A stretch of 64,000 bases of DNA, taken from assembly GCF_023051165.1 (NCBI RefSeq), contig NZ_JALKIG010000007.1, positions 1-64,000 on the forward strand. Reading direction: 5' to 3'. The stretch comes from Veillonella sp. KGMB01456 (lineage in GTDB: Bacteria > Bacillota > Negativicutes > Veillonellales > Veillonellaceae). The stretch's first letter is position 1. Each line of letters opens with the position of its first letter. Shown here in pieces: positions 5,367 through 33,736 of this stretch. The position numbers and the translations under genes are program-made. The notes under the pieces are model-generated. The model was not told the DNA's origin and ran no database searches. It saw only the letters and a list, made by a program, of their open reading frames with translations.

Positions 5367-6596
5367 TTAAAATTGTAATGTTTTAATTCGCTCAATGGCA
5401 CGCAATGTGTTTTCACGACTGCCGAAGGAGGTGAGACGTAAGTATCCTTCGCCGCAAGGGCCGAAACCGGCACCCGGGGTGCTTACGATATGTACTTTTC
5501 CCAATAAAAGGTCGAAAAACTCCCAGCTTGTCATGCCGGCCGGAACTTTAAGCCAAATGTAAGGCGCATCAACACCGCCGAATACGGTGAGTCCGATGGC
5601 AGTAAGGCCTTCGCGGATGATGCGGGCATTTTCTTTGTAGTACGCAATGGCTTCACGTGTTTGACGATGGCCTGCTTCAGAATAAACGGCTTCGGCGGCA
5701 CGTTGAATAATATAAGGAACACCGTTGAATTTAGTGCATTGTCGACGATTCCACATAGGGTTTAAGGCCTGTTTTTGACCGTCTGCCGTATTGACCGTTA
5801 ATTCCTTCGGAACCACTGTATAGGCACAGCGTGTGCCGGTGAAGCCGGCTGTTTTGGAGAAGGAACGGAATTCAATGGCTACTTCGCGAGCCCCTTCGAT
5901 TTCGTAAATGCTGTGAACTGTGTCTTCACTGCTGATGAAGGCTTCGTAGGCGGAGTCAAACATGAGCACCGTATCATTGGCTTTACACCAGTCAACCCAT
6001 TCTTTAAGGCGTTTGCGGCTCAAAACGGTACCGGTCGGGTTATTCGGGCAGCAGAGGTAGACAATGTCTACATGTTGATTCGGAAATTCCGGCGAAAAGT
6101 TATTTTCCGCATTGGTTGGTAAGTAGACGATGTTTTCAAAACGGCCGTCTTTGAACTGACCGGAACGTCCGCCCATGACATTGCTGTCGAGATACACCGG
6201 ATACACCGGGTCGGTAATGGCAACTACGTTGTTGGCACTGAAGAGCTCCTGGATGTTGCCCACGTCGGATTTGGCTCCGTCGGAGATAAAGACTTCGTCA
6301 ATATCGAGGTTGATTCCGAGTGGTTTATAATCGTGATCGACAACGGCTTGACGTAAGAATTCGTAACCTTGTTCCGGGCCGTAACCGCGAAACGTTTCGG
6401 CTTGACCCATTTCGTCAACTGCTTTATGCATGGCTTCAATCACGGCAGGTGCTAATGGTCGTGTTACATCCCCGATGCCTAAGCGAATGATGTCGGCATC
6501 CGGATTATTTTTCTGAAATTCTGCCACTTTGCGAGCAATGTTAGCAAATAAATAGGAACTTTGTAGGTTGGCATAATTTTCGTTGATTAGAGCCAT
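5367..6596 (-). CDS. dapL: LL-diaminopimelate aminotransferase
   Basis: This class I/II PLP aminotransferase of 409 residues converts tetrahydrodipicolinate directly to LL-2,6-diaminopimelate for lysine and peptidoglycan. The opening [17 protein letters not shown], the block [11 protein letters not shown] and [15 protein letters not shown] are characteristic of DapL. The PLP lysine lies in [13 protein letters not shown]. An AGGAGG precedes the ATG. Its grouping with queD and queE has no obvious metabolic logic. A promoter (TTGACA, 17 nt, TATTTG) lies 110-140 nt upstream. Confidence 0.94.
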
Positions 6597-6765: not shown

Positions 6766-6954
6766 GAAAATAAAGAAAAACAGGAATCCGGGGAGGGATT
6801 CCTGTTTTTCTTGTAAGGGGAGTGTTAGTGTTAATCAAATGAAATCTTGATCACCTATATTGGCTGAACAGGGAGGGTTCAGTATCAATATAGTTCCCTG
6901 TAATCAATGATGGAGGTAATTCGAATGGGGTATCGAAATTACCATTCATTTGAT
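6766..6954 (-). ncRNA. Candidate structured RNA: sRNA or orphan riboswitch-like element
   Basis: The roughly 185-nt minus-strand transcript would start where its outer stem starts. P1 pairs 6954-6945 with 6843-6834 (10 bp). P2 pairs 6943-6933 with 6924-6915 (one bulge) and has a C-rich loop. P3 pairs 6907-6900 with 6854-6847 (8 bp, one G-U), then after a 6-nt AGGGAA bulge 6893-6886 with 6862-6855, then 6882-6877 with 6869-6864, closing on loop CCTCCCT. The bulge and the P3 loop are complementary (AGGGA with TCCCT). A single-stranded CTCCCC stretch and a perfect 17-bp terminator follow. It matches no class I can recall. The promoter with tandem boxes lies immediately upstream. The fold was made by hand and the strand is inferred from the promoter, terminator and C-rich loops. 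Confidence 0.55.
6773..6812 (-). terminator. Intrinsic terminator of the structured RNA
   Basis: A perfect 17-bp inverted repeat (6773-6789 with 6796-6812) has a 6-nt loop, CTCCCC on the minus strand. The 3' arm ends TGTTTTTCTT and is followed by TATTTTC on the minus strand, giving the U tract in that direction. Confidence 0.8.
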
Positions 6955-6960
6955 GATATA

Positions 6961-6994
6961 ACTATACGTCATCAAAATGAACGCAAAATGAACG
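6961..6994 (-). promoter_or_regulatory. Promoter with tandem 11-bp OmpR-type boxes for the structured RNA
   Basis: On the minus strand two identical 11-mers, CGTTCATTTTG, lie back to back (6994-6973), followed after 6 nt by TATAGT (6966-6961). An 11-bp direct repeat taking the place of the -35 just before a -10 is the usual architecture of promoters activated by OmpR/PhoB-family regulators. A start 6-7 nt after the -10 falls on the first base of stem P1. The neighbouring response regulator is the natural candidate; this is inference. Confidence 0.5.
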
Positions 6995-7101: not shown

Positions 7102-7869
7102 TTAGTGGAAAATAGATTTTATAATATGTCCATTAACCCCGTCGATAATTAAATCATAGGTCAAACTGGAGCGTTTGGCTGTAATTTTATACAACGGATG
7201 CTTTAATAATTCTTTAGGCGGAGTCCGCGTGAAATCATTAATTTGTACGCCCTTGGCTAATTCGTCAATTGGGGGATGCTCACGATCGGTATTACTCTCA
7301 TTCGGTTTGATAAGCGTTCTTTCGCTTTCCAGCGGCGGTTTTGGCCCGGCTGCAGCTATTGGCGGCGGCACACGAAGAGGCGGCAATGAGGCCACATTAC
7401 TGTTTTCGGCTGTAGCCGGCAAGTTTAAGTTCTCATGGCTATCAGACGAATCGGCAGCTTGTCCGTTCATGGGCTTATTTGTCGAAGAATCTGCATTTTT
7501 ATCATTAGGCATCATTCCTTGGCCGATAGGCGGTCCCGGTGGAAAGGGCAGATCATCAAAGGTGATTAAGGCAATTTCCTTAAATGTCAGCTCATTCAGG
7601 GGCACCCCGGTATTAATGGCCGTCAACTCTTTAATGGTATCTTCGCTCAAGAGGGTCAATTTATTGGCTTTGGCCTGGGCTTTGATCATTTCGGTGCGGG
7701 CTGCACTGACACGCATCGCTTCCTGTTGTGCCATATAATCATGGACTGCATAGATACCACCGCCGATTGCAAAAGCGGCAACAAATAGCAGTATTATACG
7801 GTGTAAAGCTCGTCGAGGCGGCTCTGCATCGTTGGATTCTACTGTGAACTGTCGCAATAATGGTTTCAT
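7102..7869 (-). CDS. Membrane-anchored PepSY-like protein linked to the two-component system
   Basis: The 255-residue protein has one N-terminal membrane segment (about 24-45) and the rest is probably extracytoplasmic. Residues 75-104 (INTGVPLNELTFKEIALI) resemble the first half of a PepSY domain, and 223-252 (HPLYKITAKRSSLTYDLIID then GVNGHI) the second half. Between them is a roughly 115-residue low-complexity insert rich in Pro, Asn, Ser and Ala. The start overlaps the kinase stop by 4 nt (ATGA), so it is translationally coupled and third in the RR-HK operon. PepSY proteins often act beside sensor kinases or secreted proteases. A role as accessory sensor or modulator of the kinase is inferred. 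Confidence 0.6.
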   Translation of the reverse strand: MKPLLRQFTVESNDAEPPRRALHRIILLFVAAFAIGGGIYAVHDYMAQQEAMRVSAARTEMIKAQAKANKLTLLSEDTIKELTAINTGVPLNELTFKEIALITFDDLPFPPGPPIGQGMMPNDKNADSSTNKPMNGQAADSSDSHENLNLPATAENSNVASLPPLRVPPPIAAAGPKPPLESERTLIKPNESNTDREHPPIDELAKGVQINDFTRTPPKELLKHPLYKITAKRSSLTYDLIIDGVNGHIIKSIFH

Positions 7870-9269
7870 GGTGTATCCTCTCTAAAGACCTCATCGGTCA
7901 TGATAGGAAATTCTAAAATAAAACTTGTTGATACATGAGGCTCACTAATTGCATAGGCTTTGGCTTGATGCAAATTAATGACATTTTTTACAAAATAAAG
8001 ACCTAGTCCCAACCCTTGATTAGCTTTTTTGGTACGGGCCTGATCGACTTGATACATGCGATTCCAAATCTTATCGAGGTCGTCTTGATTAATACCTTCG
8101 CCATTATCTTTAATGGTAATACGAATGGTATTGTTTAGTTTTACGACCTGAATGGATATAGCATCTTTGGTAAATTTTATAGCGTTGTCAATCAAGTTGC
8201 CCACCGCGCGTTTTAAAAACGGCAGATTGCCGACCATGGATAAATCCGGTTGGATGGTTGCGGTTAAGGTAATATTTCTCTCTTTACAAATTCGTTGATA
8301 ACTGTCGGCTACTTCTTGCATCATTTGACTGATGCTGAGCGGATCCTTCTTGATGCTGTCCATATTGTCCAAGCGGGCAATATCCAATAATTGGGTAACC
8401 ATGGCGGTCATGAAACGACTTTGTTGGAAAATATGTTCAAAGCTTTCTTTAGCTTCGTCGATATTGTCGATATAGGCACGACCGTAATCGCTTTCTGCCT
8501 GAATAACGGCTATCGGCGTGCGAAGCTCATGGGATACGTCGGAACTGAACTGCTTTTCACGCTGCGAAGAGCTTTCTAAACTGTCAAGCATTGTATTGAA
8601 TGTTTTAGACAGTGCGGAAATTTCGTCGTGGCTGTCTACCAGTTGTTCGATACGTTGAGATAAGTCGCGTTTTTGACCAATGTCAGCGGCTGTTTGGGTC
8701 ATATTACGAATCGGTCCGAGACCACGCTTGATAATCCAATAACCGCCACTGGTGCCGATAACGAGGAATATAACCCCGCCGAGAATCAAAGAAAGCAACA
8801 TAATGTTGGCCGCACGACTGGCTGTGGTAGCGGGCATTACGCCGCGAACCCAACCGTGGAAAGCCGGGTCGGCTACAGGTGCGTCATAATAATAGAAGGT
8901 AGTGTTTTTGACAGTTACTTCTTGGATGTGATGGGGAGAAATCATACTTTCCGGTGGGAAACCGTCAGGAATGACCCCTTTGACAGCCACGCCGTTATCC
9001 GTATAGAGAACGGTAAAAACACCTTCTTGGAACGGACGGAACCGGGTCAGATTGTCGGCTGTATTAATAACCCTTGATTGTAAGGTACTGCGCATTTCCG
9101 AGGCTTCCCACAGTTGCGTGAACTGCAGAATGAACACGGAGAGCATGAGTAACATTAATAAGAGAAATATAGAATACCAGCCGGTAATCTTAAGCGTTAG
9201 CGGTAAACGGCTGAAAGGGTTAAGCGAACGACCACCGGAACTTAGCTTATTCTTCCACTTTGAAAACAT
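7866..9269 (-). CDS. Sensor histidine kinase of an OmpR-type two-component system
   Basis: A membrane kinase of 467 residues. The first membrane helix is at about 28-50, then comes a roughly 100-residue sensor loop, a second helix near 155-180, a HAMP linker, the HisKA box SSDVSHELRTPIAV with the phospho-accepting His, and the HATPase core (NLIDNAIKF, DNGEG, GLGLGLYFVKNV). The start chosen is the ATG at 9269 inside the regulator's last codons, preceded by GAGGTG; a GTG at 9278 is an alternative. It overlaps the response regulator by 23 nt. The signal is unknown. The downstream PepSY protein may belong to the same complex. Confidence 0.88.
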   Translation of the reverse strand: MFSKWKNKLSSGGRSLNPFSRLPLTLKITGWYSIFLLLMLLMLSVFILQFTQLWEASEMRSTLQSRVINTADNLTRFRPFQEGVFTVLYTDNGVAVKGVIPDGFPPESMISPHHIQEVTVKNTTFYYYDAPVADPAFHGWVRGVMPATTASRAANIMLLSLILGGVIFLVIGTSGGYWIIKRGLGPIRNMTQTAADIGQKRDLSQRIEQLVDSHDEISALSKTFNTMLDSLESSSQREKQFSSDVSHELRTPIAVIQAESDYGRAYIDNIDEAKESFEHIFQQSRFMTAMVTQLLDIARLDNMDSIKKDPLSISQMMQEVADSYQRICKERNITLTATIQPDLSMVGNLPFLKRAVGNLIDNAIKFTKDAISIQVVKLNNTIRITIKDNGEGINQDDLDKIWNRMYQVDQARTKKANQGLGLGLYFVKNVINLHQAKAYAISEPHVSTSFILEFPIMTDEVFREDTP

Positions 9270-9921
9270 AGCCCACACCTCGAACTGTGTGAATTAATTT
9301 GGCTTCGTTGGCTACATCCAATTTTTTACGTAAATCCTTAATATATACATCTATTAAGTTGGAATAACTTTCGTAGTCGTATTCCCATACGTGGTCGAGA
9401 ATCTGTTGACGGGATAATACGATGTTTACATTGCTGGCTAAATAATATAATAAGTCAAATTCTTTAGCGGTAAGTACTAATTCCTGGCCGTGTAAGGTAG
9501 CGGTACGGCTTTGGCTGTTGATTGTCAAAGGACCGGCTTCCAAATCATTGTGCGCATGATTGTAGCTGCGGCGGGATAAGGCATAGATACGAGCAATCAA
9601 CTCTTCAAATTCAAAAGGTTTGACGAGATAATCGTCGCCACCGTGGTTCAGGCCTTTTACTTTATCTTGCAAAGTATCTTTGGCGGTTAAGAACAATACC
9701 GGCGTTTTGTTGCCTTCCTGGCGCAAGTGTTGCACAACGGTAAAACCGTCCATTTTAGGAATCATTACGTCCATAACGACTACGTCGTAGCTGGATGTAT
9801 TAATGTGATCCAAAGCGGTTTCGCCGTCAAAGCAGCAGTCAACCGTCATAGATTCAACGCGCAAGCGTTTGGCGATAATATTATTTAGCATTTCTTCGTC
9901 TTCAACAAGTAAAACTTTCAT
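9247..9921 (-). CDS. OmpR/PhoB-family response regulator
   Basis: The protein has 224 residues. The receiver domain carries an acidic pair DE near the start, the phosphorylated Asp51 in VVVMDVMIPKMDG, and the Lys in FLTAKD. The C-terminal winged helix ends with TVRGVGYVFK, the family signature. It is the first gene of the RR-HK-PepSY operon, with GGAG before its ATG. Candidate targets sharing an ACGTTC core are its own promoter (around 10009-10021), the tandem repeat at 10171-10192 and the tandem repeat at 6973-6994. No experiment is implied. Confidence 0.92.
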   Translation of the reverse strand: MKVLLVEDEEMLNNIIAKRLRVESMTVDCCFDGETALDHINTSSYDVVVMDVMIPKMDGFTVVQHLRQEGNKTPVLFLTAKDTLQDKVKGLNHGGDDYLVKPFEFEELIARIYALSRRSYNHAHNDLEAGPLTINSQSRTATLHGQELVLTAKEFDLLYYLASNVNIVLSRQQILDHVWEYDYESYSNLIDVYIKDLRKKLDVANEAKLIHTVRGVGYVFKVEE

Positions 9922-10021: not shown

Positions 10022-10170
10022 TTTATTATAACACTTCATAGGCATAATAATAATAGCCTTAAGTTGAAGTCAGTATAGCGTAAGGGTATGAACCCATTGT
10101 GAAGGGATAACGTTAAGGCATTAAATTTATGATAACTAAATTGTGTACCTTTGTGTTTTATGCATAGATT

Positions 10171-33475: not shown

Positions 33476-33612
33476 ACAGAGGCACCAATACGGTGCCTCC
33501 GTGAGAAAGTCGCTATAACATCTTCCTACGACGGCATTATCCGTACAGGTATAAGGGTCGAAGTTTGATGACTTCCTCTCAGCCTACGTTCATAAGCTCC
33601 CCTGAATTTTCT
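33476..33612 (-). promoter_or_regulatory. TPP riboswitch with terminator
   Basis: On the minus strand the aptamer shows GGGGAGC (33602-33596), GGCTGAGAGGA (33584-33574), ACCC (33558-33555), ACCTG, CGGATAATGCCG and CGTAGGAAGA, in the THI-box order. It is followed by an 11-bp terminator stem (33502-33492 with 33486-33476, one G-U pair) and a T run. High TPP should stop transcription of thiW-cytX. Confidence 0.95.
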
Positions 33613-33736
33613 AACGTGATTATAGCACAGGCGGCGCATGCTTGCAATGTTTTATTGTCAGACCGTTTGAAAATAGGGTGAGAATGTTTTATAATAAAGC
33701 GGATATATTACACCTGAAAAAGGAGGGGGAGATACT

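Follow-up and report, generated by a model that had tools for sequence, protein, structure and literature searches.

The csRNAs of the CiaRH system of Streptococcus have a direct-repeat operator and pair near start codons. In Listeria monocytogenes, LhrC needs the LisRK two-component system and responds to cell-envelope stress; through a C-rich motif it binds its target ahead of the start codon, and lapB is a proven target (PMC4132741). Seeds of this kind, C-rich and complementary to the Shine-Dalgarno (SD) sequence, are documented for low-GC bacteria, LhrC, RsaE and FsrA being examples (PMC4132741). In E. coli and Salmonella, the sRNA CpxQ derives from the 3' UTR of cpxP and is stabilised by Hfq; it represses skp, and the Cpx regulon includes DegP and CpxP (PMC4817254).

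Here we compare these systems with a locus of Veillonella sp. KGMB01456. Within the window (the whole 64,000-nucleotide stretch analysed), a strongly structured RNA is encoded on the minus strand from 6954 to about 6766, preceded by tandem 11-bp boxes and a promoter of its own and ending in a 17-bp terminator (Table 1). The original prediction had listed these boxes, a -10 element, a 10-bp stem beginning at 6954 and a perfect terminator hairpin, and all are present in the minus-strand sequence. It had also proposed a three-way junction, and this is the fold predicted here, followed by the terminator stem with its 17 perfect pairs. The minimum free energy of the minus-strand RNA is -62.4 kcal/mol versus a shuffled mean of -29.0 (z -9.16), and 0 of 200 dinucleotide shuffles equalled it. 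No Rfam family matched the RNA at the gathering threshold, and at E<=5 only unrelated weak matches were returned (e.g. SpF25, 18.8 bits against a cut-off of 48). A TPP riboswitch at 33506-33613 on the minus strand (61.5 bits) is the sole gathering-level Rfam match in the window.

Table 1. Positions of the RNA element, its promoter and neighbouring genes in the window
Feature	Position	Strand	Remarks
sRNA, about 180-189 nt	6766..6954	-	Fold z -9.16; covariation in 7 genomes
P1 5' strand (ATCAAATGAA)	6945..6954	-	In 20/20 homologues
P1 3' strand (TTCATTTGAT)	6834..6843	-	Almost invariant, both genera
Arm 2 hairpin, loop TACCCCAT	6915..6943	-	2 pairs with two-sided changes; C-rich loop in 20/20
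Arm 3	6847..6907	-	Helices: 6 pairs with two-sided changes
Arm 3 AGGGAA bulge	6899-6894	-	
Arm 3 C-rich loop CCTCCCT	6876-6870	-	
Single-stranded linker TAACACTAACACTCCCCTTAC, putative seed, SD-complementary	6813..6833	-	Invariant core in 20 genomes
17-bp terminator hairpin, loop CTCCCC, then U-rich tract	6773..6812	-	Stem kept, sequence differs between clades
Putative operator half-site 1 (CGTTCATTTTG)	6984..6994	-	Perfect pair unique in genome
Putative operator half-site 2 (CGTTCATTTTG), 11-bp direct repeat, replaces -35 element	6973..6983	-	
-10 TATAGT	6961..6966	-	10 nt after second TTCAT; relatives TATAAT or TATACT
OmpR/PhoB-family response regulator	9247..9921	-	Response_reg E 4e-29, Trans_reg_C E 6.7e-28
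Sensor histidine kinase (HAMP-HisKA-HATPase)	7866..9278	-	
PepSY-like membrane protein	7102..7869	-	Between kinase and sRNA in ratti group only
dapL, downstream neighbour, outside the RNA's function	5367..6596	-	TIGR03542 E 4e-186
Putative operator and -10 upstream of response-regulator gene (TTCACAATGGGTTCATACCCTTACGCTATACT)	10072..10103	-	Box and spacing as in sRNA promoter

Of the 21 genomes in the two Veillonella genera of GTDB, 20 have a homologue. A covariance model consisting of the P1 3' strand, linker and terminator was searched in 300 Negativicutes genomes; it scored 76-96 bits in 20 genomes, at one place each, and <=37 bits everywhere else. By blastn, the whole element was recovered from all six other genomes of the window's GTDB genus (Veillonella_A), and the linker and terminator from the second genus. 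The arms and terminator diverge, while an 18-nt C-rich linker (ACUAACACUCCCCUUACA) never varies. The corresponding 18-mer, ACTAACACTCCCCTTACA, is identical in 20 genomes, and a scan of 84,980 species genomes returned it in 15 Veillonella records and one Ruminococcus record. Carriers include Veillonella ratti, seminalis, intestinalis, magna, caviae, parvula, atypica, rogosae, infantium, tobetsuensis, denticariosi and montpellierensis. The match in Ruminococcus sp. zg-924 (L040) stands in an unrelated context and is probably due to chance. The sole Veillonella genome without the RNA (G023) has the regulator, and its kinase gene ends ~76 nt from the contig end, so an assembly gap is possible. We did not find the RNA in the sister genera g2 and g3 of the family, despite their having the regulator. 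The element had been called undescribed, and we find it to be a real, previously undescribed, genus-wide sRNA family.

Covariation of the helices had been named as a check. In the window clade (7 genomes), 10 pairs show two-sided changes and 98.3% of cells are paired; 0 of 500 shuffles equalled this, and slid alignments gave 0-3 pairs. Covariation support is weaker in the second genus, where 3 pairs and 5 cells point the same way (11 genomes, mutually very similar). In the homologue folds, P1 closes a multi-way junction of two arms, followed by linker and terminator, with R32 differing in its minimum-energy fold. Terminator stem sequences are quite different between the two genera, and the adjoining linker is invariant. 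Collectively, the covariation and the invariant linker indicate that selection acts on the RNA itself.

To which strand does this RNA belong? The plus strand folds less exceptionally (z -6.9). In two alignments, 98.3% and 98.8% of pairs are kept in the minus reading, compared to 94.2% and 90.9% in the plus reading, and the minus reading has G-U and A-C cells in ratios of 20:3 and 41:2. Since G-U pairs far exceed A-C mismatches, we assign the RNA to the minus strand. That the locus codes for a small peptide, or that the plus strand is the active one, is hardly credible. The plus strand does fold and the terminator is apparently bidirectional, but the promoter lies on the minus strand, as does the G-U excess, and the sole short ORF seen by eye (13 codons, ATG near 6944) leaves no space for an SD and is not conserved in the second genus.

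Runs of C are a consistent feature of the unpaired regions. In the window RNA, they occupy the arm 2 loop, the arm 3 loop, the linker and the terminator loop, and in 20 of 20 species runs of at least three C sit in loops, bulges or the linker, with few entering or lying in helices. Among unpaired positions before the terminator, C accounts for 32-42% and G for 3-8% (20 species), as expected of a molecule selected to present anti-SD sequences. C-rich, SD-complementary single strands had been proposed for the window RNA and are seen in every species, although the terminator-loop site is missing from the second genus. A further proposal, that the AGGGAA bulge of arm 3 is complementary to its CCUCCCU loop, holds more narrowly: the two sequences are complementary and invariant in 7 genomes, but both are missing from the second genus.

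An orthologue of the response regulator is encoded in all 28 Veillonellaceae genomes (70-100% identity). In the ratti group the gene order is response regulator-kinase-PepSY-like-sRNA-dapL; in V. magna and V. montpellierensis it is response regulator-kinase-sRNA, with no PepSY-like gene and with a different, convergent gene downstream. The position downstream of a two-component system, as first described, thus applies to these lineages but not to the parvula group, where the sRNA lies away from the two-component genes and retains the operator. The histidine kinase gave no matches in viral contigs. The PepSY label of the third gene found no backing, as its product has no Pfam match even at E<=1.

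This variation in context bears on two alternative explanations. One, raised in the original prediction, is a riboswitch or attenuator in the leader of dapL-queD-queE, in which arm 3 would compete with the terminator through the pairing of AACAGG (terminator) with CCUGUU (arm 3). The RNA does precede dapL in the same orientation in Veillonella_A, and both sequences are present there. However, they occur only in that clade: the pair is missing from the second genus, where the terminator sequence is different. The gene downstream of the sRNA is not constant but varies or is convergent across Veillonella, being convergent and unrelated to dapL in V. magna and V. montpellierensis, and the parvula RNA is elsewhere. 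What is conserved is the linker and the operator. Given a downstream neighbour that changes from one group to another, we reject the dapL riboswitch as extremely unlikely. The other explanation is that the RNA is processed from the 3' UTR of the kinase or PepSY-like operon and regulates nothing. It fits the location of the RNA, which in the ratti group, V. magna and V. montpellierensis lies 3' of this operon, but not the conserved promoter and operator directly upstream of the RNA, its occurrence without the PepSY-like gene, its separation from the kinase operon in the parvula group, or the signs of selection on the RNA itself. Such an origin is very unlikely.

By sequence, then, the sRNA has an independent promoter, a putative response-regulator operator and an intrinsic terminator. 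The genome (2.47 Mb in all) has a single copy of the perfect tandem box TTCATTTTNNNTTCATTTT and zero sites with one mismatch to it. All 20 sRNA promoters carry tandem boxes with a period of 11 bp or near, and a -10 element ~10 bases past the second TCAT core. From these boxes, the putative operator consensus is TTCAY-N6-TTCAY in tandem. Searched with 0 mismatches in eight second-genus genomes, this pattern matched 33 sites, compared to 1 for a reversed-pattern control, and the sRNA promoter was among these sites in each of the eight. Tandem TTCAT boxes also lie upstream of the response-regulator gene in other genera. Judged by co-occurrence alone, the boxes are likely the operator of the adjacent response regulator. 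We set aside one conserved "operator" (G000:C6:27752): a long inverted repeat, CATACGCTCC..GGAGCGTATG, makes it and its orthologues (L200, L204, L209, L213) a terminator-like stem and a chance mimic.

The putative operator recurs at genes of envelope function. Of 28 Veillonellaceae genomes, 27 carry it in the 350 nt ahead of skp/ompH with no more than one mismatch; for comparison, 10 of 2000 random 350-nt windows of the window's genome, real sites included, contained such a match. Conserved sites across the genus also precede a macA-like membrane-fusion gene, which is followed by an ABC ATPase gene. Genes with the exact pattern in the eight second-genus genomes are skp, one HtrA-type protease gene, several encoding exported proteins, and the sRNA. 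The operator shared by the response-regulator gene, skp/ompH, macA and, in one genome, an htrA-like gene points to a Cpx-like envelope-stress regulon. The sRNA is thus most likely controlled by an envelope-stress two-component system.

Several further observations concern this regulon. In V. montpellierensis (L327), the operator lies ahead of a gene for an HtrA/DegP-like protease (Trypsin_2 E 1.6e-36, plus PDZ), and the skp of this species is the sole one of the 28 lacking the operator, a possible swap within the regulon. In Veillonella sensu stricto, operator-bearing exported proteins form three families (L324, L336, L341, L344; L326, L330, L337; L333, L346, L350) with no clear Pfam family in the two of three scanned; these may be new factors of the envelope-stress response.

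The same operator and -10 element also precede a second noncoding RNA in Veillonella sensu stricto (L343:1501-1794; also L342, L347, L339 and L340). It is about 260 nt long with no listed ORF, has a long-range stem, a terminator and highly conserved C/A-rich single strands with CUCCC motifs, and folds with a z of -7.9. It lies upstream of a tRNA with a CCA anticodon, taken to be tRNA-Trp, is (nearly) full-length in nine genomes of Veillonella sensu stricto and partial in two more, and no Rfam family matched at its locus. Long CA-repeat-like stretches (AACACAACACTTAAATACACA) downstream of operator-bearing genes in the window's genus (L197, L198; L365-L367) resemble its unstructured part and are perhaps a shared 3'-UTR element.

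To assess possible targets, we ranked genes by linker pairing in sampled genome stretches. The ribosome-binding site (RBS) of the response-regulator gene is the best of 59 window genes (-18.2 kcal/mol). Its predicted pairing is -14 to -18 kcal/mol in the ratti group, -16.5 in V. magna and -7 to -9 in most of the second genus. Pairing in the whole window clade suggests negative feedback in Veillonella_A only; as a genus-wide target this RBS was rejected, since the pairing fails in most of the second genus. Pairing of the linker with the skp RBS is moderate (-14.6 to -16.5 kcal/mol) and seen in the ratti group only; ~10% of sampled G001 genes pair equally well, and we rejected this candidate. 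Also rejected were the ompM porin mRNAs as main target, with accessibility-weighted ranks between the 25th and 68th percentiles (one genome) and weak linker pairing in V. parvula. Across 28 genomes, long linker-complementary sites showed no excess over reversed controls, the RNA itself aside; none was common to both genera, and no target was conserved across genera.

A protein-sequestering RNA with CsrB/RsmZ-like logic, in which repeated C-rich loops titrate a C-rich-binding translational regulator, would account for the lack of a single mRNA target conserved across genera and for the retention of at least four redundant single-stranded C-runs while neighbouring sequence diverges. The LhrC authors raised the same possibility for CU-rich repeats (PMC4132741). 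On the other hand, the invariant 18-nt linker exceeds the length that a protein motif needs, no cognate protein is known, and the C-rich SD-complementary motif is a documented type of seed in low-GC bacteria (PMC4132741). On balance we find sequestration unlikely. Given the seed type, and by analogy with LhrC, RsaE and FsrA, we infer that the sRNA masks SD sequences.

Our computations of RNA structure, strand, conservation, operator sharing and regulon composition are probably best explained by a stand-alone, trans-acting sRNA that is activated, rather than repressed, by the two-component system and blocks SD sites, as the repressing part of a Cpx-like response to envelope stress. The neighbouring OmpR-type regulator would be phosphorylated upon stress of the envelope or of protein folding in the periplasm, and would then bind the tandem TTCAY-N6-TTCAY boxes in the -35 position and start transcription from 6954. 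RNA polymerase would halt at the 17-bp terminator. The folded RNA would show four to five separate C-runs (two arm loops or internal loop, linker and, in some species, terminator loop), and these would pair with the G-rich SD region of target mRNAs and block their translation. With the operator common to skp/ompH, macA(B), the response regulator's own gene and, in one species, an htrA-like gene, the sRNA would form the repressing arm. A regulated sRNA aimed at ribosome-binding sites was the other reading first put forward, and it is the one favoured by the promoter and operator, the covariation, the invariant C-rich linker, the partial synteny and the keeping of the operator after relocation.

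A broader proposal seems to us evenly balanced: that one Cpx-like two-component system directly controls periplasmic chaperone, protease and efflux genes together with at least two structured C-rich sRNAs, convergent with Cpx/sigma-E and CpxQ/MicA/RybB of Proteobacteria, and that the RNA arm arose within Veillonella. "Cpx-like" here refers to the regulon. The placing of the RNA arm within Veillonella follows from the sister genera, which have the regulator and the skp operator without the RNA.

Veillonella is an unusual, two-membraned Firmicute of mouth and gut and a leading model for outer-membrane biology outside the Proteobacteria, and V. parvula SKV38 is genetically tractable. In the open-access literature, we found no described sRNA or envelope-stress regulator in Veillonella. 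The present finding suggests that a diderm Firmicute answers outer-membrane stress in part through an RNA, and it names a regulator with its putative operator, an RNA effector and a regulon that includes Skp, MacA and HtrA. If true, diderm Firmicutes also evolved a link between outer-membrane quality control and C-rich repressing sRNAs, and Veillonella would offer a clean case of a regulator that predates its RNA.

How does this RNA compare with known systems? It is set apart from the riboswitch class by its inconstant downstream gene and orientation. The csRNAs of CiaRH are likewise sRNAs in a response-regulator regulon of Gram-positive bacteria; they are smaller, exist in several copies and are not known to form a three-way junction. 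Closest in working principle are LhrC1-5 of L. monocytogenes, which depend on a single two-component system and respond to envelope stress, a control that operator sharing with the response-regulator and skp genes suggests for the Veillonella RNA. Both present redundant UCCC sites in a hairpin loop, a single-stranded linker and the terminator loop, as observed for the window RNA. However, LhrC is multicopy, a simpler two-hairpin RNA of a monoderm host, whereas the Veillonella RNA is single copy with a three-way junction; the two have no sequence relation (the window RNA being without an Rfam match), and lapB is a proven LhrC target while those of the Veillonella RNA are candidates. Closest in regulon logic is CpxQ, the sRNA of a two-component system for envelope stress that also controls a periplasmic chaperone/protease and is linked to skp: this gene is repressed by CpxQ in E. 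coli, and in Veillonella it carries a putative operator, with predicted sRNA pairing in one clade only. CpxQ is derived from a 3' UTR, whereas the Veillonella RNA has its own conserved promoter and is unlinked to the operon in the parvula group. By sequence, the Veillonella RNA is a member of neither the LhrC nor the CpxQ family. The kind of sRNA is thus already known; the family, the regulon and the phylogenetic setting are new.
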